Part shown: positions 342-32,754 of the stretch, one piece after another
Layout: every line of letters starts with the position of its first letter
Numbering within the stretch: position 1 is the first letter of the stretch
Assembly (NCBI GenBank): GCA_003282435.1
Contig: QBZG01000014.1
Coordinates: 1 to 34,967 of the forward strand
Reading direction: 5' to 3'
Length of the DNA: 34,967 nt
Origin: SAR116 cluster bacterium AG-335-B03
Lineage (GTDB): Bacteria; Pseudomonadota; Alphaproteobacteria; Puniceispirillales; Marisalimonadaceae
Made by a program: the position numbers and the translations under genes
The notes under the pieces: generated by a model
Database searches by the model: none
What the model was told of the DNA's origin: nothing
Seen by the model: the letters and a program-made list of their open reading frames with translations, nothing else

Positions 342-1577
342 ATGAAGAAAAACAAGACTAACAAAATGGGTTTTCCAAAAGCATATGGTTTATATGATCC
401 TCAAAATGAACATGAGAATTGTGGTTTTGGGTTTATTGCGAATATTAAAAATGAACCAAAACATGAAATAGTACATCAAGCCCTAGAAATTGTTCATAAT
501 CTTGATCATAGAGGTGCGATTGGAGCAGATCCCTTAGCTGGAGATGGCGCGGGGATATTAATACAGATACCTGATGACTTTTTTAGAAAAACCTTAATTA
601 ATTCCAATATAAACTTACCAAAAGTTGGAAACTATGGTGTAGGGATGGTGTTTTTACCATCTCAGGAAAAGAGGGCAGAATTAGCAATTCAAGCAGTTGA
701 AAAAGCAATAAAAAACGAAAATCAAAAACTAATTTGTTGGAGAGATGTTCCTGTAGATGAGAGTGTATTAGGTAAAACTGTTAAAGATAATGCACCAATT
801 ATAAAACAATTTTTTATTAAAAAAGACGAAGCTACATTAACAGAGCAAGAATTTCAAAGAAAACTTTATGTGATCAGAAAACAATGTCTTTTTTTACTCC
901 AAAATGAAAAAGACGACTGGGACGACTTTTATGTTGTTTCACTCTCTTCAAGGACAATTATATTTAAAGGAATGGTTTTAGCCCCAAACTTATCTAAATT
1001 TTATATTGACTTCCAAAACAAAAATTTTAAGACAGCTATTGCTTTGTTTCATCAAAGATTTTCTACAAATACATTTCCGTCTTGGAGGCTTGCGCAACCA
1101 TTTAGGTATTTATGCCACAATGGAGAAATAAACACTGTCAAAGGCAATACTAACTGGATGAATTCGAGAAGGTACAGTATGTCATCAGAAGTATTAAAAG
1201 ATGATTTAGAGAAAATATGGCCAATTATTGAAAAATCTCCTTCAGACTCAGCTACATTCGATAACGCTTTAGAACTGCTCGTAATGTCTGGTTATTCATT
1301 ATCGCATGCTATGATGCTTATGATACCAGAAGCTTGGAAAGATAAAGGAAAAAAATCAAAAGCCGATATAGGTGTCTACGATTCATCAGATGAGATTATA
1401 AGACTTTCAGGAAATGTAGCAATAATTAACCAGAATTCTAAAATTAGTGGATCAAAAGGAATAACTAATCTTAAAACTGGTATAAGTAATATTATTGGCG
1501 ACCCTAAAGAGAAAAAAAGAGTTAAAGGTATTTTCTCTCCTGTAAAAAAATTGAATAAAGGAGGTAAAATTGAGTAA
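342..1577 (+). pseudogene. Chimeric ORF: glutamate synthase large subunit N-terminus fused to LptA C-terminus
   Basis: This is one uninterrupted 411-residue frame made of two unrelated pieces. Residues 1 to about 332 match the N-terminal class II glutamine amidotransferase domain of GltB. The expected nucleophile Cys27 (ENCGFGF), HRGAIGADPLAGDGAG, HQRFSTNTFPSWRLAQPF, HNGEINTVKGN and AMMLMIPEAW are all present. The EPWDGPA segment and the FMN, Fe-S and synthase domains that should follow in a protein of about 1,500 residues are missing. From about residue 340 the sequence switches to the end of LptA/OstA, with ADIGVYDSSDEIIRLSGNV, a beta-jellyroll LPS transport strand. LptB follows immediately, as it does behind a normal lptA. 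The junction lies at about 1338-1361 in A-rich sequence. GltB activity is impossible, and an LptA lacking its signal peptide is not expected to work. A real deletion fusion or an assembly chimera would both explain it. Confidence 0.85.
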
Positions 1578-4737: not shown

Positions 4738-5676
4738 CTAATAACCTAAATTGCGATCTACTGTATTAGGCGGCATTTCTCCATTATCAATGCATTTAAT
4801 TGCATTTGCTATCTGTTTAGCAGCTGTCTTTGGATTTGTTTCAGCGGCTACATGTGGCCATATTCTTATATTTTTTTGCTCCCAAAATTTATGATCTTTT
4901 GGTAATGGTTCATTTCTGTAAACATCTAAAATGGCATTTGAGATGTGTCCCGATTTACAATTTTCGATTAAATCATCTTCAACAACGTGCTCACCTCTGC
5001 CCGCATTTATAAAACAAGATCCACGTCTCATTTTAGCAAAGATTGATTTGTTAAAAATATTAGTTGTAGACGGCGTAAGTGGTAAAAGACAAACGTGGAT
5101 ATCACAATTACTTATTAATTTTTCAATGGAATTTTCTCCATAATTACAATTAATACCTTCAATTTCTTTTTTAGTTCTACTCCAACCTTCTACTTTAAAC
5201 CCCAAATTATATAAATCTTTTGCTACCACACTTCCTATGGCTCCTAGTCCGTATATTCCAACTTTTAAGGATAAAAAATTTAATTCTTTTCTGGATTTGT
5301 ATAGTTTTATTTTTTCTTGATTATCATAGCCATAAGTATCCCTAACAAAATTAAGAATAGAAAGAATAACCCAATGACTCATAGATTTTGCCATATAGGG
5401 ATCAACTATTCTAACAATTGGGATTTTTTTAGGTATTGAGTCGTTTTTAAGAATATGGTCTACACCTTGACCCAATGATATTAACCCTTTGAGATTATTA
5501 AGATCCTCTAATCTCTTTAGAGGAGCTTTCCATATGAGTGCTGATGTTGCTTCTTCTGCATCTTTAGACAATAGTGGAACCAACTTTATCGAAGGGAAAT
5601 GGATCCGTAATCTTTTTTCCCATTCATTTTGAAGTTTTATAGTAGTGTTTTTACTAAAGAAACCAACAACTGGCAT
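4738..5676 (-). CDS. Glyoxylate/hydroxypyruvate reductase A-like (GhrA family)
   Basis: It is predicted to reduce glyoxylate or hydroxypyruvate with NADPH. The 312-residue length equals that of E. coli GhrA. GLGAIG is at 143-148, the catalytic Arg227 is in INAGRGEHVV, Glu256 is in DVYRNEPLP, and His275 is in the GhrA-type motif WPHVAAETNP. AAGGA lies upstream of ATG 5676. It is the first gene of the three-gene minus-strand operon, so a promoter is expected in the short gap before the tRNA gene. GhrA is favoured over PGDH because of the PHVAAET motif and length. Confidence 0.87.
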   Translation of the reverse strand: MPVVGFFSKNTTIKLQNEWEKRLRIHFPSIKLVPLLSKDAEEATSALIWKAPLKRLEDLNNLKGLISLGQGVDHILKNDSIPKKIPIVRIVDPYMAKSMSHWVILSILNFVRDTYGYDNQEKIKLYKSRKELNFLSLKVGIYGLGAIGSVVAKDLYNLGFKVEGWSRTKKEIEGINCNYGENSIEKLISNCDIHVCLLPLTPSTTNIFNKSIFAKMRRGSCFINAGRGEHVVEDDLIENCKSGHISNAILDVYRNEPLPKDHKFWEQKNIRIWPHVAAETNPKTAAKQIANAIKCIDNGEMPPNTVDRNLGY

Positions 5677-5763
5677 ATTTAAGTATCCTTTAGTTAAAGA
5701 ATTATTTTTTTAAAACTTCAAAATATTTATATTTAATAAACACACTTACTTGTTAATTATCAA

Positions 5764-5839
5764 TGGTGGAGCTAAGCGGGTTCGAACCGCTGACCTCTAC
5801 ACTGCCAGTGTAGCGCTCTCCCAACTGAGCTATAGCCCC
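5764..5839 (-). tRNA. tRNA-Ala (anticodon GGC)
   Basis: The reverse complement folds as a full 76-base cloverleaf with encoded CCA. The acceptor arm GGGGCTA pairs with TAGCTCC, including the G3-U70 pair that identifies alanine tRNAs. The anticodon arm is CTACA-CTGGCAG-TGTAG with anticodon GGC, and the T loop is TTCGAAC. It lies 13 bases downstream of the FYDLN-acid gene on the same strand and may be co-transcribed with it. Confidence 0.97.
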
Positions 5840-5852
5840 TTTCATTAAAACT

Positions 5853-6257
5853 TTATTTCTTTTCATCAATAATTTCTTCATTAACTTCATCATCTTCATT
5901 AATATCATCTTCGTCAATAAAAGAAATATCTTCCTCTATATTTAATTCAACTCCTGCTTCAGTTTCAGTGTCTTGATTTTCTGTATTTATATCAAGTAAC
6001 GGATCATCGTCTGATACAACTTCATTGTCCGTATCAGTCTCAATATCATCTATATTCGACATATCTACGGACATGTTTTGTTTTTTTTCAGAAACCACTT
6101 TTGCTAATAAATTTTTACCTTTCCTACTCTTTAAATATATGTCTGGATCAAACTCACTACCACATGAAGGACAAATAATAGGAGATTTATTCAGATCATA
6201 GTATTTTGTATTACAAGCAAGACAAATTCTTTTTTTACCCCATTCTGGTTTTGCCAT
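5853..6257 (-). CDS. FYDLN acid domain protein (TIGR02300-like)
   Basis: This is a conserved small protein of unknown function in alphaproteobacteria. The N-terminus has a zinc-ribbon-like CLAC and CPSC pair around the KYYDLNKSP signature, followed by FDPD. The second half is a long Asp/Glu-rich tail, making the protein strongly acidic. I chose ATG 6257 (134 residues, MAKPEWGKKR), because GGGAG lies 8 to 12 bases upstream; a TTG two codons earlier is also in frame. The place beside tRNA-Ala and upstream of divergent aroA is typical for the family. Confidence 0.88.
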   Translation of the reverse strand: MAKPEWGKKRICLACNTKYYDLNKSPIICPSCGSEFDPDIYLKSRKGKNLLAKVVSEKKQNMSVDMSNIDDIETDTDNEVVSDDDPLLDINTENQDTETEAGVELNIEEDISFIDEDDINEDDEVNEEIIDEKK

Positions 6258-6383
6258 TATCAAACTCCCGCAAAATTATTTCCAATATGGGATTAGACTA
6301 AAAATTTTAATTCTGTCAAAAGATTTTTTAATAATTTTGTTAACATTTATTAAATTAAATATATATTTGCATTCTTAATGAGA

Positions 6384-6397
6384 TATAATGGGCATTA
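6384..6397 (+). promoter_or_regulatory. Candidate -10 element for aroA, possibly leaderless transcript
   Basis: A perfect TATAAT at 6384-6389 ends only 8 bases before the aroA ATG at 6398. No Shine-Dalgarno sequence lies between them. With usual spacing, transcription would begin at or next to the A of the start codon, giving a leaderless mRNA. No good -35 hexamer is seen 16-18 bases upstream, so the call is tentative. Confidence 0.4.
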
Positions 6398-7726
6398 ATG
6401 AATTCAATATCGTCTAGTAAATCTATAAATTTATCTGGGAATTTGAGTGTTCCTGGAGATAAATCCATTTCACATAGATCGTTGATCATTGGTTCTTTAG
6501 TCAGTGGCAGAATTGAAATAAATAATCTTTTGGAAAGTGAAGACGTTATTGCAACAGCTGAAGCTCTAAAAATTCTAGGAGTTAAAATAAATAAATTAAA
6601 TGATAAATGGGAGGTATTTGGTAGTGGAATAGGTAATTTTTTTGGCTCTAACTATACACTAAATATGGGTAATTCTGGAACTGGGGCTAGATTGCTAATG
6701 GGATTAGTAGCAGGATCTGACGTTGAAGCTACATTTATAGGAGACGAGTCTTTATCAAAAAGACCAATGAAAAGAGTAACAACACCCTTAAAAAAAACAG
6801 GTGCTGTAATAAGGAGCCAAACTAGTAATTTACCAATTAAAATACAAGGTAGTAAAATTCCTTTACCAATTAAATATCAAAGCCCTGTTTCATCTGCTCA
6901 AGTAAAATCCAGTATATTACTTGCAGGGTTATCCTCATTAGGAAAAACAACAATTATAGAACCATCTTTATCGAGGGATCATACAGAAAGAATGCTGAAA
7001 TTTTTTGGTGCTAATATTTCAACACATCAATTAGATGACATGTCATGGGAAATAACTTTAGATGGTATCCCTGAACTAAAGCCATTAAATCTTAGTATTC
7101 CGGCAGACCCATCTAGTGCAGCATTTCCAATTGTTTCTGCTATAATAACTCCTAATAGTAAAATTAATGTTGAGAATGTGTGCATAAACGAGCTTAGGAT
7201 TGGTCTATATAAAACTTTGATTGAAATGGGTGCCAATATTCAGTTTTCTAATCATAGAGAAAAGAATGGTGAATTGATTGCTGATATTACTGCAAGTTCA
7301 AGTAGCTTAAAAGGAATAACCGTCCCTAAATCAAGAGTTGCATCTATGATTGACGAATACCCTATATTATCAATAGCAGCAACCAGAGCAATAGGAAAGA
7401 CAGTAATGGAAGGGGTTGAAGAGCTTAGATATAAGGAAACTGACAGGATAAAAACAGTTTGTGAGGGTTTACAAAAAATAGGTGTGGTTACTCATGAAAC
7501 TAGCGACAGCATGGTTATAGAAGGAAAAGGTCCTAATGCTAAAATAATTGGCAATATAGAGATTGATTCCAATCTAGACCATAGAATTGCTATGTCTTTT
7601 TTATGTTTAGGTTTGATCACTGAAAAAGCAATTATTGTAAGAAACACAGATACAATAAACTCTTCTTTTCCTTTTTTTATGCAAAAAATGAATAAGATTG
7701 GTAGTAACTTAAAATTTTTTAATTAA
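6398..7726 (+). CDS. aroA: 3-phosphoshikimate 1-carboxyvinyltransferase (EPSP synthase)
   Basis: It catalyses phosphoenolpyruvate plus shikimate-3-phosphate to EPSP, the sixth step of the shikimate pathway, in the cytoplasm. The 442-residue protein has VPGDKSISHRSLI near residue 18, the NSGTGARLLMGL loop around residue 90, GDESLSKRPM, the PVSSAQVKSS motif, IDEYPILSIAA, ELRYKETDRI and the terminal NLDHRIAMSF. This is the complete two-domain fold. The start is ATG 6398, the first in-frame ATG, without a Shine-Dalgarno sequence. It begins the aroA-cmk-rpsA block, with cmk 18 bases downstream. Confidence 0.97.
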   Translation: MNSISSSKSINLSGNLSVPGDKSISHRSLIIGSLVSGRIEINNLLESEDVIATAEALKILGVKINKLNDKWEVFGSGIGNFFGSNYTLNMGNSGTGARLLMGLVAGSDVEATFIGDESLSKRPMKRVTTPLKKTGAVIRSQTSNLPIKIQGSKIPLPIKYQSPVSSAQVKSSILLAGLSSLGKTTIIEPSLSRDHTERMLKFFGANISTHQLDDMSWEITLDGIPELKPLNLSIPADPSSAAFPIVSAIITPNSKINVENVCINELRIGLYKTLIEMGANIQFSNHREKNGELIADITASSSSLKGITVPKSRVASMIDEYPILSIAATRAIGKTVMEGVEELRYKETDRIKTVCEGLQKIGVVTHETSDSMVIEGKGPNAKIIGNIEIDSNLDHRIAMSFLCLGLITEKAIIVRNTDTINSSFPFFMQKMNKIGSNLKFFN

Positions 7727-7744
7727 CAGAAAAAACAATATTTA

Positions 7745-8401
7745 ATGATAGAAATAGCAATTGATGGAACAGCAGCTTCTGGAAAAGGTACTTTAGGCAA
7801 AAAACTATCTGATAAATATAGTTTTCCTTATTTAGATACAGGATTGTTGTATCGTAAGGTTGCTTATGAACTTATAAAGGATAATAAAGTCAACACGCCA
7901 GAATTAGAAAAAACCAGTTGTAATTTTGCAATGATTTTAAATTTCAAAGAATTGAAAAATACAAATTTAAGAACTGAAGACGTTGCTAAACTTGCGTCAA
8001 AGATTGCTACTTTTCCTAATCTTAGAGAGATTTTAAACAACAAACAAAAAGAATTTAACAATTCAAGTAAAAAAAAATTTGGTGGTTGTATTTTAGATGG
8101 AAGAGATATTGGTACCACAATTCTCCCAAATGCAGATTTTAAGTTCTTTATTACTGCGTCATTAAAAATAAGAGCTAAAAGAAGATTGTTAGAAAAAAAT
8201 ATATCTTTCTTGCATGAAAATGATGAAAAGTGTATGTTGCAAGTTTTGATGAATAATATGAGAGAAAGGGATAGAATTGATAGTAACAGACAAATATCAC
8301 CTTTAGTTCCAGCTAAAGATGCTTATGTTATCGATACTACCTCAATTAATCCTGAAGAATTATTGTTAAAAGTTGCCAATATTATTGAAAGAAAAAAATG
8401 A
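7745..8401 (+). CDS. cmk: Cytidylate kinase
   Basis: It phosphorylates CMP and dCMP with ATP for nucleotide synthesis. The 218-residue protein has the P-loop GTAASGKGT at 8-16, the YLDTGLLYRKVA substrate-binding segment, the LDGRDIGTTILPNA motif that binds CMP, and RAKRR and RERDRIDSNRQISPL in the lid region. It follows aroA closely and probably shares its transcript. The cmk-rpsA order downstream of aroA is widely conserved in proteobacteria. Confidence 0.96.
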   Translation: MIEIAIDGTAASGKGTLGKKLSDKYSFPYLDTGLLYRKVAYELIKDNKVNTPELEKTSCNFAMILNFKELKNTNLRTEDVAKLASKIATFPNLREILNNKQKEFNNSSKKKFGGCILDGRDIGTTILPNADFKFFITASLKIRAKRRLLEKNISFLHENDEKCMLQVLMNNMRERDRIDSNRQISPLVPAKDAYVIDTTSINPEELLLKVANIIERKK

Positions 8402-8403
8402 GA

Positions 8404-8428
8404 TGCTAAAAAAATGGAGGTTTTAGCA
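8404..8428 (+). other. Hairpin just after cmk
   Basis: TGCTAAAA (8404-8411) and TTTTAGCA (8421-8428) form a perfect eight-base-pair stem around a 9-base loop containing TGGAGG, starting three bases after the cmk stop. No T run follows, so termination would be weak. It may reduce read-through into rpsA or act as an mRNA 3' end. Confidence 0.35.
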
Positions 8429-8480
8429 AATTAAATAAGCAAATAACCTACTGAAAATTTATTTTATTATAATTATTAGA

Positions 8481-8509
8481 TTGATTTCTTTTGTTTCCAT
8501 AATTATAAC
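8481..8509 (+). promoter_or_regulatory. Predicted sigma70-type promoter for rpsA
   Basis: TTGATT (8481-8486) and TATAAC (8504-8509) are separated by 17 bases, close to the TTGACA-N17-TATAAT consensus. The start point would be near 8516, leaving a leader of about 36 bases that includes AGGAGA at 8541-8546. A dedicated promoter would fit the high expression needed for S1. Confidence 0.45.
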
Positions 8510-8551
8510 CTCAGTAAATTGCTTATATGCTAACTAAGATAGGAGAAAATA

Positions 8552-10261
8552 TTGTCCCAAGCTGATGTAACAGCCTCACCTGTGAATGAAAGCTTTGCAG
8601 AATTACTAGATCAAAGCTTTCAAGAAATGACAAGCATTGAAGGTTCAGTTGTTGCTGGCACAGTATTGTCGGTTGAAAAAGATATGATTTTGATTGATGT
8701 AGGACTGAAATCTGAAGGAAGAGTTCCATTAAGAGAATTTGGAAATAATGAAGAAGATATTAAAATAAATGCTGGAGACGTGGTTGAAGTTTATATTGAA
8801 AGGTTAGAAGATATAAACGGTCATGCTATATTAAGTAGGGAAAAAGCAAGGCGAGAAGAGTCCTGGGTTAACCTAGAAAAAGCTCTCGAAAAACAACAAA
8901 GAGTTAATGGAGTCATATTCGGTAGGGTAAAAGGTGGATTTACAGTTGATCTTGAAGGCGCAACTGCTTTCTTACCCGGAAGTCAAGTTGATATCAGGCC
9001 TATTAAAGATTTAGGTGTTTTGATGGGAACGCCGCAACCATTTCAGATTTTGAAAATGGATAGAAGAAGAGGTAACATTGTTGTATCACGAAGAGCTGTT
9101 TTAGAAGATAGTAGAGCAGAAGCAAGATCTGAACTAGTTGCTAATCTTGAAGAAGGCCAAGTTCTACAAGGCGTTATTAAAAATATTACTGATTATGGCG
9201 CTTTTGTTGATTTAGGTGGTGTAGATGGTCTATTACACGTAACAGATATCTCATGGAAAAGAATTAATCATCCGTCAGAAGCTTTACAGATAGGTCAATC
9301 TGTTCAAGTCAAAGTTATAAAATTTAATGATGAAACACAAAGGATTTCATTAGGGATAAAACAACTTACTGAGGATCCATGGGTACAGGTTTTTGAACGG
9401 TTCCCAGTTGGCTCAAAAATGACAGGAATTGTAACAAATATTACAGATTATGGCTCTTTTGTTGAATTGGAAGACGGGATAGAAGGCCTAGTACATGTTT
9501 CAGAAATGAGTTGGACGAAAAAAAATGTCCATCCTGGCAAAATAGTATCTACTTCTGAAAAAGTTGAAGTAATGGTACTAGAAATTGATGTTCAAAAAAG
9601 GAGAATTTCTTTAGGAATAAAACAATGTGTAGATAACCCATGGGAAAATTATAAATCAAACAATAAAGTTGGAGAAACAATTGAGGGTGAGATAAGGAAT
9701 ATTACTGAATTTGGTTTATTCATAGGATTATCTGAAGATATAGATGGTTTAGTTCATTTATCAGATTTAAGTTGGGATGGCAATGGAGATGAGTTGATAA
9801 AAACATATTCTAAAGGAAGTTCAATCAAAGCCAAAATATTAGATATTGATATAGATAAAGAGCGTATTTCTCTTGGAATCAAGCAATTAACTGAAGACGT
9901 AACTGCTACAGAAATAGGAAATATAAGAAAAGGTTCAACAGTCACTTGCACTATTTCAAATATTATTGATAACGGTCTTGAGGTTAACGTTGGTGAAAAT
10001 CTAAAAGGGTTTATAAAGAAAAGTGACCTATCACGCGAAAGAGCAGATCAAAAAACCGATAGATATGGTGTGGGTGATAAAATTGATGCCGCAGTTATTA
10101 ATATTGACAAAAAGAATAGAAAAATTTCACTTTCAATTAAAGCAAAAGAAATAGAAGAAGAAAAGAAAGCAATGGCTGAGTTCGGATCGTCTGATAGTGG
10201 CGCAAGTTTAGGTGATATCTTAGGAGCTGCATTGGCTAAGAAAGATACAAGTTCTTCATAA
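8552..10261 (+). CDS. rpsA: 30S ribosomal protein S1
   Basis: S1 docks mRNA on the 30S subunit and helps initiation on weakly structured leaders. The 569-residue length fits the six-S1-domain form. Repeats are visible as VVAGTVLSVEKDMILIDVG, VNGVIFGRVKGGFTVDLEG, LQGVIKNITDYGAFVDLGG, MTGIVTNITDYGSFVELED, IEGEIRNITEFGLFIGLSE and a more divergent sixth copy (VTCTISNIIDNGLEVNVGE). The start is TTG 8552, supported by AGGAGA 6 bases upstream; no better ATG exists. The C-terminus is short and Ser/Ala-rich. Confidence 0.97.
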   Translation: MSQADVTASPVNESFAELLDQSFQEMTSIEGSVVAGTVLSVEKDMILIDVGLKSEGRVPLREFGNNEEDIKINAGDVVEVYIERLEDINGHAILSREKARREESWVNLEKALEKQQRVNGVIFGRVKGGFTVDLEGATAFLPGSQVDIRPIKDLGVLMGTPQPFQILKMDRRRGNIVVSRRAVLEDSRAEARSELVANLEEGQVLQGVIKNITDYGAFVDLGGVDGLLHVTDISWKRINHPSEALQIGQSVQVKVIKFNDETQRISLGIKQLTEDPWVQVFERFPVGSKMTGIVTNITDYGSFVELEDGIEGLVHVSEMSWTKKNVHPGKIVSTSEKVEVMVLEIDVQKRRISLGIKQCVDNPWENYKSNNKVGETIEGEIRNITEFGLFIGLSEDIDGLVHLSDLSWDGNGDELIKTYSKGSSIKAKILDIDIDKERISLGIKQLTEDVTATEIGNIRKGSTVTCTISNIIDNGLEVNVGENLKGFIKKSDLSRERADQKTDRYGVGDKIDAAVINIDKKNRKISLSIKAKEIEEEKKAMAEFGSSDSGASLGDILGAALAKKDTSSS

Positions 10262-14217: not shown

Positions 14218-15450
14218 ATGATCAAAAAACATAAATTATCACACACATTAAATAGAATGTTTTCACTTCACCCAAAACTGATAGACTTCGATCTTTCCAG
14301 ATTAAAATTACTAATGAAAAAATTTAATAACCCACAAAACAGGTTACAAAATGTAATTCATATTGCAGGTACTAATGGCAAAGGTTCAACAGCATCTTTT
14401 CTCAAGGAAATATTGGAATATCATAAGTTATCAGTAAATTTATACACATCGCCTCATTTAATTAATTTTAATGAACGTATAAGAATAAATAATAAGTTTA
14501 TTTCAGATGAAAAACTGATTAAAATTTTAGAAGAAGTAGAAACAAAAAATGCTAATAACCCAATTACATTTTTTGAGATAACGACTGCAGCAGCTATAAT
14601 TGCTTTTGAAAGACAACCTAGTGATGTAAATATATTTGAAACAGGTTTGGGTGGTAGATTAGATGCCACAAATATTATTGAAAATAAAAAACTTACTATA
14701 ATAACTAAAATAGGTTTTGATCACATTGAGTTCCTTGGAGAAAAAATTGAAGAGATAGCGCGCGAAAAGGCTGGAATTTTTAGAAAAAACACCCCAGTTA
14801 TTATTGCGAAGCAAAAGAATATAAAAGCACGTCAAACCCTTTTAACATGCGCAAAAAATTTGAAAACTGAAATAATTGATATTGAAAATATTTCTACAAA
14901 TACAATGCTTGGATTAAGTGGTGATCATCAATATGAGAATGCATCTACAGCTTATACTGCTGCAAAAAAAATATTACCATTAATATCCTTATCAAAGACA
15001 AATTTAGCTTTAAAACAAGCGAATTGGCCTGGAAGAATTCATCAGATAAGACAAGGAAAAATTATCAATTATAGAAATAATATAACAATCCTAGACGGTG
15101 CACATAATAATGATAGTGCATATGTGTTGAATCAATATTTAAATAAAAAATCTATAGGAAAATGGAATTTAATAATTGGCATGTTGAAAAATAGAGATGT
15201 TGAAAATTTTGTGAAAATAATCAAAAATCATATTAATAAAGTGTTTGCTATGGCTATTCCTGAAATAGAGACATCATATTCTCCAGATGAAATAATTGCA
15301 AAATTAAAAAAAATAGGGTTAGAAGTACTTCCTGCACAAAATTTGGAAAATGCCTTACATCATGCTGAAAAAGATATACCTCTTTTAATTACTGGATCAC
15401 TTTATTTAGCAGGAAATACTTTAAAATTTAATAAAACAAAGATTGATTAA
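14218..15450 (+). CDS. folC: Bifunctional folylpolyglutamate/dihydrofolate synthase
   Basis: It attaches glutamate to dihydropteroate and folates. The 410-residue Mur-ligase-family protein has the P-loop GTNGKGST at 51-58, YTSPHLINFNERI, the FETGLGGRLDATN motif, KIGFDHIEFLG, NWPGRIHQI and LDGAHNNDS. It is 27 bases after accD, the conserved accD-folC pair. Its stop overlaps the stop of convergent trxA by four bases. Confidence 0.95.
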   Translation: MIKKHKLSHTLNRMFSLHPKLIDFDLSRLKLLMKKFNNPQNRLQNVIHIAGTNGKGSTASFLKEILEYHKLSVNLYTSPHLINFNERIRINNKFISDEKLIKILEEVETKNANNPITFFEITTAAAIIAFERQPSDVNIFETGLGGRLDATNIIENKKLTIITKIGFDHIEFLGEKIEEIAREKAGIFRKNTPVIIAKQKNIKARQTLLTCAKNLKTEIIDIENISTNTMLGLSGDHQYENASTAYTAAKKILPLISLSKTNLALKQANWPGRIHQIRQGKIINYRNNITILDGAHNNDSAYVLNQYLNKKSIGKWNLIIGMLKNRDVENFVKIIKNHINKVFAMAIPEIETSYSPDEIIAKLKKIGLEVLPAQNLENALHHAEKDIPLLITGSLYLAGNTLKFNKTKID

Positions 15451-15767
15451 ATTGTCTCGTTAACCCAAGTTTCAAGAGCTGATTTTGGTAACGCTCCCAT
15501 TTTTTCAGATATTTTTTGACCATCTTTGAAAATCATTAAAGCTGGAATACTTCTTATACCATAAGCTTGCGATGTTGAAGGATTCTCGTCAACATTAATT
15601 TTCACTATTTTTAGTTTGGTCGCCATTTCTTCAGATAATTCCTCAAGAGACGGACCAATAGCTTTACAGGGTCCACACCACTCTGCCCAAAAATCAACTA
15701 AAACTGGTTCTTTTGATTCTAAAACATCTTGTTTAAATTTTTGGTCATTGGTTTTATTAGTTGCCAT
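15447..15767 (-). CDS. trxA: Thioredoxin
   Basis: It is a general cytoplasmic thiol-disulfide reductant. The 106-residue protein has the active site WCGPC with Cys31 and Cys34, preceded by PVLVDFWAE, and the cis-proline segment GIRSIPALMIF. There is no signal peptide, so it is the cytoplasmic TrxA type. It converges on folC with a four-base overlap of stop codons, leaving no room for an intergenic terminator. Confidence 0.96.
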   Translation of the reverse strand: MATNKTNDQKFKQDVLESKEPVLVDFWAEWCGPCKAIGPSLEELSEEMATKLKIVKINVDENPSTSQAYGIRSIPALMIFKDGQKISEKMGALPKSALETWVNETI

Positions 15768-15804
15768 TTTTTTTAATCTCCCAACTTTCTTTGCTAATTA
15801 TAAT

Positions 15805-17220
15805 TTATTGATATTTCTTTTCTAGATCTTGAAGAAAATTGTCTAATTCTTCTAAAAATAATAGTTTTTCGTCATCACCCTTGATCTCAAATTGTTCTCT
15901 AAAAGTATCTAATTCATGATATGATTTTGGTATTGTATTCCATTTTTCATTATCAGTACTTAAAATCTGTTTTGCAATAATTTTATGAATAATATTATAA
16001 TCAGATTTGGGAAGTACTAAAGGTGCTTCTTCATAGATTAATCTTTGAGCAAAGTATTTATATCTTTGATCTTTAAAGTGGTTTGATATATAAAACTTTT
16101 CTTCCCAATCGGCATTATGAAAATCTATCATTTTTGATTTATCATTGTTATCTGCGAAACCTCCAAAATATAAGCTATCTTCAGGTTGTAAATCAATTTG
16201 AGATTTATAAACCTCCTTTTCTTCATTTTCTTCAAATAATATTCTCTGTATTTTATTTTTAAAATCTGGGTTTTTTTTGATCATCTCTGCTCTTTTGTGA
16301 AGAACTTCAACTCCTATAGATTTATAAAGAGGTATTTTTTCAATATGGCTTGCATCCAATAATACAGGATTCTTATTATTTTTTATTTCTCTTATTAGTT
16401 TTGGTCTTTGTTTAATTTTAATTTTTAAATCTTTTATTGACATATCAAAATAATCAACAGGATCATGAAGCAAATCAAAACACTGAGGATAGTTAAAATG
16501 ATTTTTGCATAAGTAAGTTACTACATGGGTGTTGAATTTACCAAAAAAATATTCATCCATACAAACAATATTATTGTTAATTAGGAAGTTATCAACATCA
16601 ATTTTAGTACTGTTATTCAAAGCAGAATCCCAAATTATGTTAGCTTTTTTTTGTAAAATTTTTGTAATTTCCATAGTAGCTTCTACATCACCCATAGCGT
16701 CATGTGCATTATGAGTAATCTTGTTCAATTCAGTCAAATTATCTAGTTTGAATATTTGATTCCCTTTTTCATTCATACCAACTTCTAAACATTCCGGATA
16801 ATAATATTTAGATGATCTTGTTATTCCTAAAACATCTGCTCTTTTATTTCCATTAAATTGAGTTATATATGGTTCTAGAAGTAATTTAAAAAAAGTTTTT
16901 CTAAGAAACTCTTCATCAAATGAAATAGTATTATATCCAATAAATATAGCTGGAGACCATTTTTTAAATTTATCCTGAAGCTTTTTTATTAAACCATAAT
17001 GTGATAAATTAACATTGTTTAACATCTCTATTGATGTTTTATTAACTAATAAAGCACCAGGTTCGGGAACCAAACCTGATTTTAAACGACATCTATCCTC
17101 AAATCTTTCAAGCTCATTAAAATTCTTGTCGACTAAGATTGCGGCAACTTGAATAATTTGATCCCAAGTAGAATTTCTTCCTGTAGTTTCCAAATCATAA
17201 AAAACAAAATTCATACTCAT
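15805..17220 (-). CDS. sbcB: Exonuclease I (SbcB)
   Basis: It is a single-strand 3'-5' DNA exonuclease acting in recombination and mismatch repair. The 471-residue protein is close in length to E. coli ExoI (475). DEDDh residues are visible: Asp9 and Glu11 in FYDLETTG, Asp102 in NTISFDEEFLRKTFF, and His173 and Asp178 in NAHDAMGDVEAT. The middle has DLKIKIKQRPKLIREIKNNKNP, typical of the SH3-like ExoI extension, followed by a helical C-terminus. ATG 17220 overlaps the tsaE stop (ATGA), so the two are translationally coupled. It occupies the slot between tsaE and trxA where many alphaproteobacteria carry addB-addA. Confidence 0.92.
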   Translation of the reverse strand: MSMNFVFYDLETTGRNSTWDQIIQVAAILVDKNFNELERFEDRCRLKSGLVPEPGALLVNKTSIEMLNNVNLSHYGLIKKLQDKFKKWSPAIFIGYNTISFDEEFLRKTFFKLLLEPYITQFNGNKRADVLGITRSSKYYYPECLEVGMNEKGNQIFKLDNLTELNKITHNAHDAMGDVEATMEITKILQKKANIIWDSALNNSTKIDVDNFLINNNIVCMDEYFFGKFNTHVVTYLCKNHFNYPQCFDLLHDPVDYFDMSIKDLKIKIKQRPKLIREIKNNKNPVLLDASHIEKIPLYKSIGVEVLHKRAEMIKKNPDFKNKIQRILFEENEEKEVYKSQIDLQPEDSLYFGGFADNNDKSKMIDFHNADWEEKFYISNHFKDQRYKYFAQRLIYEEAPLVLPKSDYNIIHKIIAKQILSTDNEKWNTIPKSYHELDTFREQFEIKGDDEKLLFLEELDNFLQDLEKKYQ

Positions 17221-17716
17221 TTATTCATATTCAACTTTAAGGAAAGCTCTTTTATCCTATTAAACCAATTTACAGATCCAAATAGTGAAACTTTTCTTAA
17301 TTCTGAAAATTTCTTCTCATTGTGACCAATAAAAGTGATAGTAATGTTTAAGGGGTCCAAATTTTTAATTTCTAAATTAAATCTTGGCCATTCTAGCAAA
17401 ATAATTTTTTTTTTAGATCTTCAAAGATACCGATTTCTTCAACTTCTTCAAAGTTATTAATTCTATAAAAATCGCAATGCCATATTTCTATAACCTTATT
17501 CAAAGGATAAGTTTGAACGAGGTTAAATGTTGGACTTGGTACTTCTTTAATATTTGTAATACTGCATATAATAGACTTACAAAGAAAAGTTTTACCAACT
17601 CCCAAATCACCTTCAAAAGTAATTAGATCGTTTGCTTTTAATAATCTTGATATCAAACCACCAATATATTTCATTTCATTTTCAGATTTGACAATAATTT
17701 CTGATAATGCCTTCAT
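17217..17716 (-). pseudogene. tsaE: tRNA t6A biosynthesis ATPase TsaE, frameshifted in an A10 tract
   Basis: TsaE is the ATPase partner of TsaB/TsaD in making the t6A37 tRNA modification. From ATG 17716 the frame shows the P-loop GDLGVGKT at 36-43, VPSPTFNLVQTY and the HCDFYRI motif, up to FEEVEEIGIFEDL. It then enters A10 (T10 at 17405-17414 on the plus strand) and stops three codons later. The missing end (LLEWPRFNLEI and the rest) continues in another frame to 17217. One extra A (A11), or two fewer, restores a protein of about 165 residues with the LEWP motif normal for the family. ahcY ends just two bases upstream of the ATG, and the TGA overlaps the sbcB start. TsaE is usually essential, so error or slippage is more likely than true loss. 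Confidence 0.87.
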
Positions 17717-17718
17717 GC

Positions 17719-19110
17719 TCAATACCTATAATTATCAGACTTGAAAGGACCTTGGACTGGAACACCGATATAATCAGCTTGCTCATTTGATAATTTAGAT
17801 AAAGTTGCCCCTACTTTTTCCAAATGGAATGTAGCGACTTTTTCATCTAGATGTCTTGGTAACGTATAGACCTTATTTTCATAGTTTTTAGAATTTTGCC
17901 AAATTTCAATCTGTGCTAAAACTTGATTGGTAAATGAAGCACTCATTACAAAGCTGGGGTGCCCAGTTGCACAACCCAAGTTAACTAATCTTCCCTTTGC
18001 TAACACAATTAATCGTTTACCATCTTGAAACTCTACTTCATCCACTTGAGGTTTAACTTCTGACCACTTCATATTTTGTAATGATTCAACCTGTATTTCA
18101 GAATCAAAATGACCTATATTACAAACTATAGCTCTATCTTTCATATCTCTCATGTGGTCAACTGTAATAACATCTTTATTACCAGTTGCGGTTACAAAAA
18201 TGTCTCCTCTTGGACAAGCTTCTTCCATTGAACACACCTCATAACCTTCCATTGCAGCTTGTAACGCGCAAATTGGGTCAATCTCTGTTACAATCACTCT
18301 TGCTCCACCCTGACGAAGGGAAGCCGCTGAACCTTTACCAACATCACCAAATCCAGCTACTACAGCTACTTTACCGGATAACATGACATCTGTAGCCCTT
18401 CTAATACCATCAACTAAAGATTCTCTACATCCGTATAAATTGTCAAACTTAGATTTTGTTACAGAGTCATTTACATTTATCGCCGGAAAAGGAAGATCAC
18501 CTTTTTCAGCCATTTGGTATAATCTTAAAACACCTGTCGTTGTTTCTTCTGTTACTCCTTTAATACTATTTTTGACCTTAGTAAACCAACCTGGAGAAGA
18601 TTTAAGTCTAGACATGATTTGAGTTTTAAGCGCCTCTTCTTCTTCATTAGCTGGTGACGCAAGCACCCTTTCTCCACTTTCAGCTTTTGCTCCCAAAATT
18701 ATGTAAAGTGTGGCATCTCCACCGTCATCTAGAATCATATTAGCAAACGTACCTTTAGACCATGTAAATATTTTATCAACATACTCCCAATACTCTTTTA
18801 GAGTTTCACCCTTTTTAGCAAAAACTGGGATATTTTGTTCAGCAATAGCCGAAGCAGCGTGATCTTGTGTTGAATATATATTACAACTAGCCCATCTAAC
18901 GGTTGCTCCAAGGCTTACCAAAGTTTCAATAAGTACGGCTGTTTGTATAGTCATATGTAAACAGCCTGCTATTCTAGTTCCTTTTAATGGTTGTTCTTTT
19001 CCATATAATTCTCTGCAAGCAGTCAATCCTGGCATCTCTGTCTCAGCAATTGATATTTCTTTTCTTCCCCAGTTGGCAAGGCTAATATCTGATATTGAAT
19101 AATCTTTCAT
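17719..19110 (-). CDS. ahcY: Adenosylhomocysteinase
   Basis: It hydrolyses S-adenosylhomocysteine to adenosine and homocysteine, relieving product inhibition of methyltransferases. The 463-residue length suits the bacterial form with the extra insert. It has [38 protein letters not shown], the NAD motif [26 protein letters not shown] and the C-terminal dimer tail ending DNYRY. AAGGA precedes ATG 19110. It is the first gene of a coupled ahcY-tsaE-sbcB run. I saw no SAH-riboswitch-like structure in its 88-base leader. Confidence 0.98.
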
Positions 19111-19198
19111 AATAATCCTTAAAAATATTTATACTCCTATAACACTCTAACTATCTTTTGAAAACTGTGAATTTATTACTTTTTAATTTTTTATGCTT

Positions 19199-20797
19199 TT
19201 ATATTTCTAGAAAACTGACTTTAACACTACCTCCGACACATTCATTCTTTTGGTTAAATCTATTTAAAGCTTCAATAGTCCCTCCATGCGCTAAGACTAT
19301 TTGTTTTGAAATGGATAAACCCAAGCCAGAATGATTTCCAAACTTTTCATTTTTAGGTCTGTCTGTATAAAATCTATCAAAAACTTTATTTAGAGATCCA
19401 TTCGAGAAACCTGGACCACTATCTTCAACGAGAATAATAACATGTTCTAAGCTTTTTTCTAAACGTATATTTATAATCTGTTTATCAGTTGAAAAAGAAA
19501 CCGCATTTTGTATTAAATTATCAAAAACCTGTGCAATCTTATTTTCATTACCAAAAATATACATATCTTCGGAATATTTTAAAAAATTTATATTACAATC
19601 AACTGTGGATGATCTTACATCAACCAAAGTTTCAAGTAGAATCGAAATGTTTATTTTTTTCATTTCTATTCTAGATAATTCTGAATCTAGCCTTGAAGCT
19701 GCAGAAATATCGTTAATTAATCTATTAATTCTTTCAACATCATTTTGGATAACTTTTATTAATTTTTTCTGTTCACTTGCACTTCTTACTTTACTAATTG
19801 TTTCTGAAGCAGACCTCACAGATGTTATAGGATTTTTTAACTCATGTGCGACATCCGCAGCAAATTCTGCTATGTGATCTATTCTTTTTTGTAATTCATT
19901 AGTCATTTTGAAAAATGATCGCGCTAGTTTCCCTATTTCGTCCTTTCTAAATCTAAATTCACTTAGATTAAAAGTTTTCATCATTTTGTCTTCTGCTATT
20001 TTATCAGCCTCATTTGATAACTTTACTATAGGGTTAGTTATTGATCTTCCAAAATAAAGAGCAAGAGTAATGGTTGCTAATAAAATTACCCCAAATGCTT
20101 TAAAAAGTTCAGTTTCCAAGTCTACTAATTCTTTTTCTATTTTACTACCCGAAACTGATAGAAGAACAGCGCCCCTAATCATGCGAATATTTTTAATAGG
20201 AATTGCAACTGATAAAAATAAATTTCCACTTTTATCTTGCCTGAGCACTTTTGTGTTTTCACCTCTCAGAGCCATGATAACTTCTGGAAAATCTTCTAAC
20301 GAAAATTCTCTATTATCAACATAAAGTGGAAGATTTAGTGGTTTTGATATAATATTTGAAAATAAAAAGACAAAGTCAGTGAAATAAGTTTTTAAAGAAA
20401 AATCCTTATCTACGGATGGTAAAGGACTTACTTTAACAAATGGACTATATTTCATGCTTGCTTTTGTGTCAGCTATTAAATTCCCGTATATATTGAAAAG
20501 TCTTGCTCTAATGTTAGATCCATAATCAACTTTAGGAATAAGACTTTGTAACGCAGGACTAGAGATTTGATTATTTTGAATTAGGCCATATTGGTTTTCT
20601 GCCAACGCAAGTGCTTTCGTAAGAGTAAGACCTTGTCTTTCTATGGCTGCAAACTCAGATTTAATCAAAATTTCTTGATACTTGTTGAAGTAAATTATAA
20701 TGATAGGATATAATAAAACTGGTAATAAAATTATAAATAATATTCTCATTTTAAGAGGAAAATATAATCTCTTTATAATTCTAAAAAACTTTCTCAA
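19199..20797 (-). CDS. chvG: ChvG-type sensor histidine kinase
   Basis: It is a membrane sensor kinase that phosphorylates the adjacent ChvI-type regulator. The 532-residue protein has a first membrane segment at about 18-37 and a periplasmic domain of about 190 residues. The second membrane segment is at about 231-249, followed by a HAMP linker (GRSITNPIVKLSNEADKIA). The H box AADVAHELKNPITSVR carries His318. N (NKIAQVFDNLIQNA), G1 (DSGPGFS) and G2 (GLGLSI) boxes are complete. Three bases separate it from chvI. In other alphaproteobacteria ChvG/ChvI responds to acid and envelope stress; the signal here is not known. Confidence 0.9.
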   Translation of the reverse strand: MRKFFRIIKRLYFPLKMRILFIILLPVLLYPIIIIYFNKYQEILIKSEFAAIERQGLTLTKALALAENQYGLIQNNQISSPALQSLIPKVDYGSNIRARLFNIYGNLIADTKASMKYSPFVKVSPLPSVDKDFSLKTYFTDFVFLFSNIISKPLNLPLYVDNREFSLEDFPEVIMALRGENTKVLRQDKSGNLFLSVAIPIKNIRMIRGAVLLSVSGSKIEKELVDLETELFKAFGVILLATITLALYFGRSITNPIVKLSNEADKIAEDKMMKTFNLSEFRFRKDEIGKLARSFFKMTNELQKRIDHIAEFAADVAHELKNPITSVRSASETISKVRSASEQKKLIKVIQNDVERINRLINDISAASRLDSELSRIEMKKINISILLETLVDVRSSTVDCNINFLKYSEDMYIFGNENKIAQVFDNLIQNAVSFSTDKQIINIRLEKSLEHVIILVEDSGPGFSNGSLNKVFDRFYTDRPKNEKFGNHSGLGLSISKQIVLAHGGTIEALNRFNQKNECVGGSVKVSFLEI

Positions 20798-20800
20798 TTT

Positions 20801-21490
20801 TTATACATCTCTATACCTATACCCAACACCATATAGAGTTTCAATACAATCAAAATTTTTATCAAAAATTCTAAATTTTCTTCTCATTCTCTTTATATGA
20901 CTATCAATAGTTCTGTCATCAACATATATAGTTTCACCATATGCTGTGTCTATAAGTTGATCTCTATTTTTTACTAATCCTGGTCTAAGTGCCAATGTAT
21001 AAAGTATTAAAAATTCTGTAACAGTCAGCCTTATCTCTTGTCCTTTCCACTTACAAAGATGCCTGTCTGGATCAAGGGATAACTCATTTCTTTGGATCAT
21101 TTTATCTGATGAATCTGAATTTTTAAATAAAGTCCTTCTAAGGACTGCTCTTATTCTTTCTATCAGTAGTTTTTGCGAAAATGGCTTAGTTATGTAGTCA
21201 TCAGCACCCATTCTAAGACCAATTGCTTCGTCTATTTCATCATCTTTACTAGTTAAAAAAATAACTGGTACATCATTAGAAACCCTAATACGTTTTAAAA
21301 GTTCCATACCATCCATTTTTGGCATTTTAATGTCTAAAACAGCTATATCCGGAGAGTTTCTTTGTAATGCAACAAGTCCTTGTTCACTATCATTATAAGT
21401 TTCAACTGACCAACCCTCTGCCCTTAAGGCAAGGGAAACAGATGCTAAAATATTACTATCATCATCAACAAGTATTATCTTTTCACTCAT
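20801..21490 (-). CDS. chvI: ChvI-type response regulator (OmpR family)
   Basis: The 229-residue protein has an N-terminal receiver domain with the acidic pocket LVDDD at 8-12, phosphoacceptor Asp53 in [11 protein letters not shown], Thr in FLTSKDD and Lys in ADDYITKPF. It is followed by an OmpR-type winged helix ending in [15 protein letters not shown] and GVGYRY. It forms a two-gene operon with the kinase. It is assigned to ChvI because of the pairing and the nearby ahcY, which is a common alphaproteobacterial setting. Confidence 0.9.
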
Positions 21491-21596
21491 TATTTCACCT
21501 GTATTTAAAAAAATAATTATTTATTTATGATTATTTGATGAGAAAATTTAGGTTTATTCAAGGCTAAATTAAGTTAATTTATGTTAAATAATATAA

Positions 21597-24443
21597 TCAA
21601 TGAGCTTCAGCCCAATTATTTCCAACACCTACATCTACTTTTAAGTTAACTTTCAAAGGTACGATTGGTAAGTTAGCAGCTTCCATTATGGGTAGTATAA
21701 CATTTGTAAATTCTTCAATATTTTTTTCTTTAATTTCAAATACTAACTCATCATGGACTTGCATCAGCATAGAAATTTCTTTTTTATTTAGTAACTGTTT
21801 ATGAATTTTAATCATCGCCAATTTAATAATGTCCGCTGCAGTACCTTGAATAGGAGCATTAATAGCTTGCCTTTCTGCAAACCCTCTCAGCTTTTGGTTT
21901 TTGGAATTACTATGATTAATATAAACACGTCTATTAAATAAAGTTTCTACATAGCCATCACTATCTAAATTAGATTTAATTTGTTCCATATAATCTCTAA
22001 TTTTTGGGAATCTGTAGAAGTATGAACTAATAAAATCCTTTGCTTCATTTGCAGAACATTTTAACTGCTTTGCAAGACCATATGCTGAAATACCATAGAT
22101 AATTCCAAAATTAATTGCCTTTGCCTTTCTTCTAAACTCTGAAGTCATTTCTTTTATTGGTATACCAAACACCTTAGAGGCAGTATCGGCGTGAATATCT
22201 AAATTATCATTAAACGCATCCAACATCTTATTTTCATCTGCAATATGAGCAATCAACCTTAATTCAATTTGAGAATAATCCATTGAAACTAATTTGAAGC
22301 CCTGCTTTGGCTCAAAAGCTGTTCTAATTAACCTTCCTTCTTCAGTTCTAATTGGTATGTTTTGTAAATTTGGATTTGAAGAAGACAGCCTTCCAGTGCT
22401 TGCTCCAACCATAGAATAGTTAGTGTGAACTCTATGAGTTTTTGAGTTTATTTGTTCAACTAACGCATCCGTGTAAGTGCTTTTAAGTTTAGAAAAATGT
22501 CTCCAACTCAAAATAACGTCTCCAATTGCATATCCCATGTCAGAAATTTTTTCTAATATTTCAACACTTGTTTGCCAGGAGCCATTTTTTGAACGTTTGC
22601 CGCCTTCAATTTTCATCTTATCAAATAAAATTTCTCCTAATTGTTTGGGAGAACCTATATTGAAATTAGTTTTACTCATTTTGAATATTTGCTCTTCCAA
22701 TTTATCAATCTGACTTGATAAATTTTTAGAAATTTCATTGAGTTTTTTAGGATTAATGATTATCCCTGTATTTTCCATTTCTAACAATACATTAATCAAT
22801 GGATTTTCTAGTCTTTTATAAACTGAAAACTTTTTATCATTAATTATTCTTGGTAAAACTCTATTGTAAATTGATAGAGTTATATCAGCATCTTCAGCCG
22901 CGTAATTTAGCGCATCTAAGGGAGACAATTGATTAAATGAAATTTTATTTTTTCCTTTTCCACAAATATCATCATATTTGATGGTATCATGGTTTAATTC
23001 ACGCAATGCTAAAGCATCTAATTTGTGGCTATCCACTCTTCCTGGATCTACCACATATGAAATACACATAGTATCACTAACAGGATTTAAATTAATATTA
23101 CCATTATGTTCTTGTTTCATTACTAATGAATCGTATTTAATGTTATGACCAATTTTTAAAATTGAACTATCTTCTAGAAGTGGTTTAATTAAGGAAATTG
23201 CGTCACCAAATGGAATTTGTTTAAATGATTTTACATCGTCAAAAATAAACCCTGACTGATTATTTTCCAAATTTATTCCATGCCTTAAAGGTATATAACA
23301 AGCCTCACCTTCTTCAAATGACAATGATAGACCAACTAAGTTAGCATTTTTAGCATTTAAAGAGTCCGTTTCACAATCTACAGCAATAGTAGATTTATCA
23401 TAACATCTGTATAAAAAAAGTTTTAAGTCCGATAAATTTTCAATTAAATAATAATTTTTTGAAATGGATTTAAACTCTTGATCATTTTTAATAACATCTA
23501 ATTTTGAAACTTTTGATTCTTCTTTGATTTCTTCTTTCACAACATTTTCATATTTATTTAATAAGCTTTTAAATCCATGGGCTTTTAAAAAAGGAATTAA
23601 TTTATTAAGTTCCAAAATAGAATTTATTTTGAACTCATCAATTTTTGAAATAACTGGTACATCTTTTTTTAAGGTTACTAATGATCTAGATAATCTTGCT
23701 TGATCAGCATATTCTATCAAATTTTCTCTTCTTTTATTTTGTTTTATTTCAGTTGCTCTGATTAACAGTTGTTCTAAATCACCGTATTGATTTATTAACT
23801 CCGCAGCTGTTTTAACACCAATTCCAGGAACTCCAGGTATATTGTCACTGCTATCACCTGCAAGTGATTGAACATCAATCACTTTACTTGGATAAACCCC
23901 AAATTTTTCAAAAACTTGCTCATCATTAATCCAATATTGTTTCATTGGATCAAATAATATTGTGTTATCATCAACTAATTGCATAAGATCTTTGTCACTA
24001 GAAATTATGATTACCTTTTTATTTGTTTTTTGGGCAATGTTTGAATATGTTGCTATTAAGTCGTCAGCTTCAAAACCCTCCATTTCAACAACAGGTAAGC
24101 CAATAGCATTAGTTGCTTCTCTAATAATTGAAAATTGGGGAATTAATTCTTCCGGAGGATCAGATCGATTAGCTTTATATAATTTGTAAAGATCATTCCT
24201 AAATGTTTTTCTTGCAACGTCAAATATAACAGCTACGTACATTGGTTTAAAATCATCAATCAGTTTGAGTAACATTTTTGTATAACCAAACACTGCATTG
24301 ACAGGCACCCCATTTTCATTTGTCATAGAGGGTAACCCATAAAAAGCTCTAAAAATATACCCTGAACCATCAATTAATATTAAATTATTCGGGTCATTCA
24401 ATTTTATATCTGGTCTTTTAGTGTGTTTTAAATTATCGCTCAT
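21597..24443 (-). CDS. polA: DNA polymerase I
   Basis: It removes RNA primers, fills gaps and takes part in repair. All three domains are visible in 948 residues. The 5'-3' nuclease covers about 1-300 (LIDGSGYIFRAFYGLP, EGFEADDLIAT, SGDSSDNIPGVPGIG-like segment). The 3'-5' proofreading domain looks active, with VDCETDSL, GHNIKYDSLV and YAAEDADITL. The polymerase domain has GRLSSSNPNLQNIP, MDYSQIELRLIAHI, RRKAKAINFGIIYG and MQVHDELVFE. It starts at ATG 24443 and diverges from the ABC gene over a 137-base AT-rich gap that should hold both promoters. Confidence 0.98.
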   Translation of the reverse strand: MSDNLKHTKRPDIKLNDPNNLILIDGSGYIFRAFYGLPSMTNENGVPVNAVFGYTKMLLKLIDDFKPMYVAVIFDVARKTFRNDLYKLYKANRSDPPEELIPQFSIIREATNAIGLPVVEMEGFEADDLIATYSNIAQKTNKKVIIISSDKDLMQLVDDNTILFDPMKQYWINDEQVFEKFGVYPSKVIDVQSLAGDSSDNIPGVPGIGVKTAAELINQYGDLEQLLIRATEIKQNKRRENLIEYADQARLSRSLVTLKKDVPVISKIDEFKINSILELNKLIPFLKAHGFKSLLNKYENVVKEEIKEESKVSKLDVIKNDQEFKSISKNYYLIENLSDLKLFLYRCYDKSTIAVDCETDSLNAKNANLVGLSLSFEEGEACYIPLRHGINLENNQSGFIFDDVKSFKQIPFGDAISLIKPLLEDSSILKIGHNIKYDSLVMKQEHNGNINLNPVSDTMCISYVVDPGRVDSHKLDALALRELNHDTIKYDDICGKGKNKISFNQLSPLDALNYAAEDADITLSIYNRVLPRIINDKKFSVYKRLENPLINVLLEMENTGIIINPKKLNEISKNLSSQIDKLEEQIFKMSKTNFNIGSPKQLGEILFDKMKIEGGKRSKNGSWQTSVEILEKISDMGYAIGDVILSWRHFSKLKSTYTDALVEQINSKTHRVHTNYSMVGASTGRLSSSNPNLQNIPIRTEEGRLIRTAFEPKQGFKLVSMDYSQIELRLIAHIADENKMLDAFNDNLDIHADTASKVFGIPIKEMTSEFRRKAKAINFGIIYGISAYGLAKQLKCSANEAKDFISSYFYRFPKIRDYMEQIKSNLDSDGYVETLFNRRVYINHSNSKNQKLRGFAERQAINAPIQGTAADIIKLAMIKIHKQLLNKKEISMLMQVHDELVFEIKEKNIEEFTNVILPIMEAANLPIVPLKVNLKVDVGVGNNWAEAH

Positions 24444-24580
24444 TTAAGATTATTTTGAAAAAAATTACAGTTATTTTATTGATATTATATTATAAATAAA
24501 TTGATGTAATTGTCATTAAATCATAAAGATCTGATATTTTTTTTTTGGGGATATGAGAAAAATCATTAGAAAGATTATAA

Positions 24581-25549
24581 ATGAATAAAAATTATTGGGA
24601 AATTCCAGATAATAAATTAGCCTTGGAAATTAAAAATCTTAATAAATCCTATGATGGAGATACTAAAAATAATGCATTAAACAATGTATCTTTAAATATA
24701 CCAGCTAGAAGTATTTTTGGTCTTTTGGGCCCTAATGGTGCAGGTAAATCAACGCTGATAAATATTATTTCTGGAGCGGTTATTAAAAGTTCTGGCCAGG
24801 TAATTGTATGGGGTTATGATATTGACAAATATAGAAAACAATCAAAATTAGCAATAGGTGTTGTTCCACAAGAGTTAAATATTGATGCTTTTTTTACTCC
24901 TCAAGAAACTTTAAATTTACATTCTGGTATGTTTAATGTTCCTAAAAAATCTTGGAGGACAGATGAATTATTAAAGTTAATGGATTTAAGTAATAAAGCT
25001 AAGAGTTATAGTCGAACATTATCTGGTGGAATGAGAAGAAGGTTACTAGTTGCTAAAGCAATGGTACATTCGCCCCCAATTGTTATACTAGACGAACCTA
25101 CTGCAGGGGTAGATGTAGAGTTAAGACAAAAATTATGGAAATATTTTAAAAAATTGAATGAACAAGGTGTTACTATAATATTAACTACGCACTATCTAGA
25201 AGAGGCAGAAAATTTATGTGACCATATAGCTATTATTAATAAAGGTAGAATTATTACAAATGAAACTACAAATTCTCTTCTTGCAAAATCAAACAAAAAA
25301 ATAATTAAAATCACGTTAAGTAAAAATAAGATTTCGACAAAAGATAAAAATTTTCTTAAAAATATTGGACAAATAATAATTCATGGAAATAAAGTGAAAT
25401 TGCACTTTAATCCTAATAAAATTTCTACGAAAAAAGTTTTTGAAACCTTACATAAATCAAATTTGGATATAATAGATTTATCTACGAAAGATGTTAGTCT
25501 TGAAGATATTTTTATCGATATGACAAGAGAAAACAATAGTAAAATATAA
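24581..25549 (+). CDS. ABC transporter ATP-binding protein (ABC-2/YadG type), no adjacent permease
   Basis: The 322-residue ATPase has Walker A GPNGAGKST at 50-58, the Q-loop VVPQELN, signature LSGGM, Walker B VILDEPTAGVD and switch histidine TTHYLEEAE. It also has a C-terminal extension of about 100 residues, as in YadG/CcmA-like exporters. The next gene starts on the base after its stop and is a GIY-YIG protein, so the membrane partner expected for an ABC-2 exporter is not next door. It may be encoded elsewhere. The substrate is unknown. Confidence 0.85.
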   Translation: MNKNYWEIPDNKLALEIKNLNKSYDGDTKNNALNNVSLNIPARSIFGLLGPNGAGKSTLINIISGAVIKSSGQVIVWGYDIDKYRKQSKLAIGVVPQELNIDAFFTPQETLNLHSGMFNVPKKSWRTDELLKLMDLSNKAKSYSRTLSGGMRRRLLVAKAMVHSPPIVILDEPTAGVDVELRQKLWKYFKKLNEQGVTIILTTHYLEEAENLCDHIAIINKGRIITNETTNSLLAKSNKKIIKITLSKNKISTKDKNFLKNIGQIIIHGNKVKLHFNPNKISTKKVFETLHKSNLDIIDLSTKDVSLEDIFIDMTRENNSKI

Positions 25550-25804
25550 ATGATCTGGTTTGTTTATATGTTAAGATGTAGAGATAATTCAATCTACACT
25601 GGGATAACCAATAACCTAGAAAAAAGAATTGGAGCACATAAGTCAGGAAATGGCTCCAAATATCTTAGAGGAAGATTACCTGTAGAATTGATTTATAAAG
25701 AAGATTTTTTAAATAGAAGTACCGCTTGTAAAAGAGAAATAGAAGTAAAAAAACTAAAGAAAAAAGAAAAAGAATTATTAATAAAGTCTGCAAGCCAAGT
25801 TTAA
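25550..25804 (+). CDS. GIY-YIG nuclease superfamily protein (UPF0213/YhbQ-like)
   Basis: This is an 84-residue single-domain protein. Motifs are FVYMLRC at the start (the GIY position), IYTGITNNLEKRIGAHKSG with the YIG-equivalent TGI and catalytic-type Arg, and GSKYLRGRLPVELIY. It fits the small YhbQ/UPF0213 family, some members of which cut branched or damaged DNA; its role here is unknown. ATG 25550 follows the ABC gene stop with no gap, so the two are almost certainly co-translated. Confidence 0.88.
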   Translation: MIWFVYMLRCRDNSIYTGITNNLEKRIGAHKSGNGSKYLRGRLPVELIYKEDFLNRSTACKREIEVKKLKKKEKELLIKSASQV

Positions 25805-25814
25805 GGGAGAAAAT

Positions 25815-26720: not shown

Positions 26721-26763
26721 GTTCATTATAACATAACCATGGGGGAAAACATGGAGAATAAAT

Positions 26764-32747: not shown

Positions 32748-32754
32748 TAACCTA

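Follow-up and report, generated by a model that had tools for sequence, protein, structure and literature searches.

The open reading frame at positions 342–1577 of the window joins, in frame, the first ~335 residues of GltB to the last ~79 residues of LptA. The window is the whole 34,967-nucleotide stretch that was analysed, and it constitutes the entire contig C14 of SAR116 cluster bacterium AG-335-B03, whose assembly comprises 62 contigs and 1.45 Mb and is 66% complete. The hybrid is best explained, with a probability of roughly 0.96, as a chimera of multiple displacement amplification (MDA) that persisted into the assembly of a single-cell genome. It is almost certainly an ordinary false join, with neither biological meaning nor a new protein behind it, and bases 1–1345 are most likely genuine SAR116 DNA lying in the wrong orientation relative to their neighbour. 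The features at this end of the window, with the basis of each assignment, are as follows:

1–178, + strand: C-terminal part of a LysR-type regulator gene truncated at the edge of the contig (alignment to lysR of relatives)
342–1345, + strand: 5′ part of gltB, glutamine amidotransferase domain, very probably misjoined (GATase_2; identity to GltB of the relative G001)
1338–1345, + strand: junction, with the 8-bp word AAAGATAA apparently common to both joined stretches (overlap of the two alignments)
1338–1577, + strand: 3′ end of lptA (identity to LptA of G001)
1570–2397, + strand: lptB, complete and collinear with relatives (TIGR04406, E = 1.3e-104)

The hybrid frame starts with ATG and remains open throughout its 411 residues on the + strand, in a window sequence containing no N. 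Residues 27–347 match Pfam GATase_2 (E = 1.1e-127), covering only positions 1–319 of the 420 in the profile, and residues 15–341 match the NCBIfam model for GltB, the glutamate synthase large subunit (E = 1.3e-105). The gltB part is 92% identical to residues 1–339 of the 1544-aa GltB of G001, a protein with all four domains (amidotransferase, central, synthase and GXGXG), of which the hybrid holds only part of GATase_2. On the other side, the NCBIfam match to LptA at residues 337–400 is weak (E = 2.3e-4, below the curated cut-off), and Pfam LptD_N falls just below its cut-off on the LptA fragment (profile positions 69–112 of 113). The LptA identity is firmer than this family match, since it is supported by the LptA of relatives: window positions 1335–1574 are 90% identical to residues 192–271 of the 271-aa LptA of G001, only these residues being present and the N-terminal region missing. 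The start of lptB at 1570 overlaps the end of the hybrid frame, and the same lptA/lptB overlap is found in the public locus L022. At the left end, the 54-aa LysR fragment by itself has no Pfam match; the L022 counterpart of the window start, from position 10028, falls inside a LysR gene (9312–10205). The preliminary description had read the amidotransferase start, the LptA ending, the usual lptA–lptB overlap and the A-rich joining spot (given as about 1338–1361) correctly, and had only taken the LptA tail as somewhat too short, at 70 residues. Any join of two reading frames running in the same direction has a one-in-three chance of an in-frame outcome.

Two further features of the window stand apart from the hybrid. 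A ptsN-like gene (PTS_EIIA_2, 2490–2954) carries one extra A in an A-run near 2557 compared with G001 and the relative G013. The reading frame opened by the ATG at 2490 is thereby interrupted, and the only one left begins at an internal TTG and encodes 139 aa (154 aa in L022); the break is either a sequencing error or a real frameshift. Between 31557 and 33867, four small, closely spaced frames of 108–123 aa lie on the minus strand, and those at 31557–31910 and 33529–33867 match DUF6974, with no Pfam match for the other two.

In SAR116 relatives, the window aligns as two separate blocks, 1–1345 (lysR end, spacer and gltB start) and 1338 onward (lptA–lptB), the latter being collinear with G001 and G013 as far as 20000, the end of the query. 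The second block occupies 14747–33406 of the G001 contig C14 on the minus strand and the first block occupies 39027–40371 of the same contig on the plus strand; the arrangement in G013 is the mirror image. The DNA between the blocks in relatives contains the lptA start, lptC, a 3′-5′ exonuclease gene, an NAD-dependent epimerase-like gene, bacA (uppP), a flavin reductase-like gene and the lysR start. Projected onto L022, the joined points lie at 11372 and 4407, on opposite strands and 6.97 kb apart. The two loci had been described as unrelated, but gltB and lptA are close divergent neighbours in the relatives, most of which carry the names of single-cell assemblies.

Among 57 public loci fetched, 30 contigs have both blocks at the thresholds applied, and 29 of them show this divergent order; the sole exception is L036, which itself bears an inverted join. 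The other loci have the gltB block only (15) or no qualifying gltB block (12, ten of them Campylobacterota-type records by title). Because three of the divergent contigs (L042, L049 and L058) are bulk-metagenome MAGs by title, the order is independent of single-cell data. It had been proposed that the two genes were fused by a deletion that took out the bulk of gltB together with the beginning of lptA, and the open frame itself is all that speaks for such an event. A deletion keeps strand, however, and the genes lie on opposite strands in every two-block contig other than L036, which excludes a deletion for practical purposes unless both genes were on one strand in the ancestor of this genome. 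The comparison of the same locus in close relatives, suggested earlier as a check, instead supports the other option raised in the preliminary description, that the contig is chimeric and everything left of 1338 is misplaced.

An order-wide search of 136 genomes gave some match to the hybrid protein in 116. Among the matches listed, the only one running full length through both parts is that of the window itself, and 19 same-genus genomes, counted by eye, have GltB and LptA parts on one contig in divergent orientation. In G045, likewise divergent, a contig end leaves no more of gltB than its very beginning. In G049 the two parts lie on one strand; judged by contig number and positions, it is probably the same assembly as L036.

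Contig ends are clustered in the same region of the relatives. Ten of the 29 near-relative contigs (L028, L030, L031, L033, L034, L036, L041, L046, L050 and L063) end within L022-equivalent positions 5561–9372, a 3.8-kb stretch between lptC and gltB, and two of these ends share position 7313. The clustering may partly reflect selection, the set having been chosen for gltB, and the stretch may amplify or assemble badly.

At the junction, the alignments of the two blocks overlap by 8 bp, 1338–1345, in L021, L022 and others. The 8-bp word is present at the matching gltB place in 20 of the 29 near relatives by a fuzzy search, which went off target in at least one of the other nine (L027, where the word is present). 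On the lptA side, the word is exact in L022, is represented by six contiguous bases in L026 and is not kept in L025, L027, L029 and L037; the fuzzy-search readings of this side in the 29 relatives had matched unrelated low-complexity places and were discarded. As deduced from the sequences of relatives, the word at the window junction may have a true length of 6–8 bp, and its exact occurrence in the lptA of only some relatives is a point against the MDA-chimera reading. For comparison, 200,000 random inverted joins 1–10 kb apart were drawn in L026, draws off the ends being skipped; at least 8 bp were common to both sides at a frequency of 0.00044, and at least 6 bp at 0.0036.

The window genome itself was searched with a 17.5-kb stretch of G001 spanning the locus. 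Apart from the two blocks of the window, this query gave five short hits elsewhere, each 41–67 bases long, and it found neither the reciprocal lptA′-′gltB junction nor the intervening DNA in the assembly. The intact copies that had been expected elsewhere did not appear: searches of this 66%-complete assembly found neither the part of GltB after residue 339 nor the part of LptA preceding residue 192, and neither gltD nor lptC. At that degree of completeness, failure to find these genes counts for little. Intact copies of gltB and lptA may lie in the unassembled part. The first 1357 bases of another contig of the genome, C5, align forward to G001 C14 47882–49238, ~7.5 kb past the gltB fragment. 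Unassembled gaps of about 5.6 and 7.5 kb flank bases 1–1345 of the window, which thus form an island, with the junction 1.3 kb from a contig end, and this isolation fits an entry into the assembly only by way of a chimeric molecule tied to the well-covered lptA–lptB side.

An inversion was also suspected at the start of C5 and was rejected: the region follows the order of G001 and contains a threonyl-tRNA-synthetase-like frame without a break, and the odd arrangement is that of G013. There, the threonyl-tRNA synthetase gene is split, with C12 26231–27504 corresponding to C5 1–1267 of the window genome reversed and C12 starting at C5 1177. About 91 bases occur twice in G013 (L094 near C12 26230 and the start of L098), and a 24-kb stretch has the opposite orientation to that in both the window genome's contig and G001. 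The arrangement in G013 looks like another false inverted join.

A second, independent inverted join at the gltB–lpt locus is present in L036, which is contig NODE_35 of SAR116 isolate AG-897-B18. Its gltB start runs to L022-equivalent position 11684, where the sequence switches strand at 6224 and continues through lptC, lptA and lptB; the joined points are 5.46 kb apart and have 7 bp in common when read against L045 and L048. In the AG-897-B18 assembly, the 17.5-kb query matched only the two blocks and, in two further places, the lysR stretch, with no other gltB or lptA. As in the window, a 5′ part of gltB is joined to the inverted lpt side of the same locus. Unlike in the window, one breakpoint is deeper inside gltB and the other falls where the exonuclease gene upstream of lptC begins, so that the lptC–lptA–lptB side is kept. 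That another cell shows other breakpoints is easier to reconcile with a recurrent artefact than with a single inherited event.

The same observation bears on a real inversion of ~7 kb in the cell lineage, with breakpoints inside lptA and gltB and an exchange of their 3′ parts. Such an event would produce the geometry observed and would leave both hybrids in frame, and the assembly of the window genome holds no outright contradiction of it. Real inversions can be seeded by short inverted words. Against this stand the missing reciprocal join, the different inverted join in AG-897-B18, and the absence of the window junction from every relative examined (in the order-wide search, among the matches listed). 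The inversion would also break gltB and lptA together, and LptA is generally essential in LPS-bearing bacteria. The event would amount to a surprising one-step loss of two important genes, and it is judged very improbable. No more credence is given to its corollary, a cell with two in-frame hybrids whose glutamate synthesis and LPS transport would rely on copies or routes in the unassembled third of the genome.

The MDA-chimera reading is further favoured over a join made by the assembly software, or by ligation during library preparation, with no MDA molecule involved. Assembler k-mers are usually longer than 8 bp, so the 8-bp word makes a pure graph error unlikely, and random ligation would not be expected to favour an inverted neighbour 7 kb away with a shared word. 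False joins do occur in short-read assemblies: PMC11247762, where it describes the sources of its genomes, puts the rate in benchmark cultures at 1.5 misassemblies per 100 kb, a figure that appears there to concern the GORG-Tropics workflow and that corresponds by arithmetic to ~0.5 per 35 kb. The same text describes single-cell genomes as less prone than MAGs to the mixing of organisms, another kind of chimera. Overall, a false join of this type is an even fainter prospect than the inversion.

The involvement of MDA is presumed from the names of relatives. At 78% identity or more there are 29 public loci (L025–L050, L063, L069 and L077), and 26 of them bear plate-and-well names, which are taken to be those of single-cell genomes, although many of their titles say MAG. 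The window genome is presumably also a single-cell, MDA-amplified genome. PMC10224968 describes its own marine single-cell genomes as made with phi29 MDA or WGA-X. A literature search for chimeric MDA joins in SAR116 single amplified genomes found no paper, and neither did a search on strain SCGC AAA536-G10.

In the proposed course of events, phi29 would have been extending a strand out of lptB in the direction of the lptA start when the 3′ end of that strand was displaced inside lptA. The displaced end could then have annealed, through ~8 complementary bases, to the displaced strand of the neighbouring, divergent gltB, and would have copied that strand back into lysR. Both genes would most likely be intact and divergent in the cell, as in the relatives, with the DNA on both sides of bases 1–1345 left unassembled.

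An in-frame hybrid of two genes in a single-cell assembly can be a product of amplification, and surveys of fused genes could be misled by it. Most such hybrids can be settled cheaply by a check of strand, distance, shared word and the gene order of relatives.

The closest known counterparts are the chimeras described by Lasken and Stockwell in 2007, who sequenced the MDA product of one E. coli cell. According to that paper (PMC1855051), 406 of 475 chimeras were inverted, and 337 of those 406 had joined points less than 10 kb apart; where an inverted join spanned under 10 kb, its two sides had bases in common in 93.5% of cases, in words ranging from 2 to 21 nt. A join of inversion type at a short word common to both sides, as in the window, is the signature of MDA chimeras. 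The cases reported there were seen in raw reads from E. coli, whose genome is known, whereas the window is an assembled contig read from its sequence alone. In the features themselves the likeness is close: the second segment is inverted compared with the relatives, the joined points (6.97 kb) are less than 10 kb apart, the shared word, 8 bp from the relatives, lies within the 2–21 nt range, the intervening DNA is left out, and no reciprocal junction accompanies the join, a weak agreement in a 66%-complete assembly.
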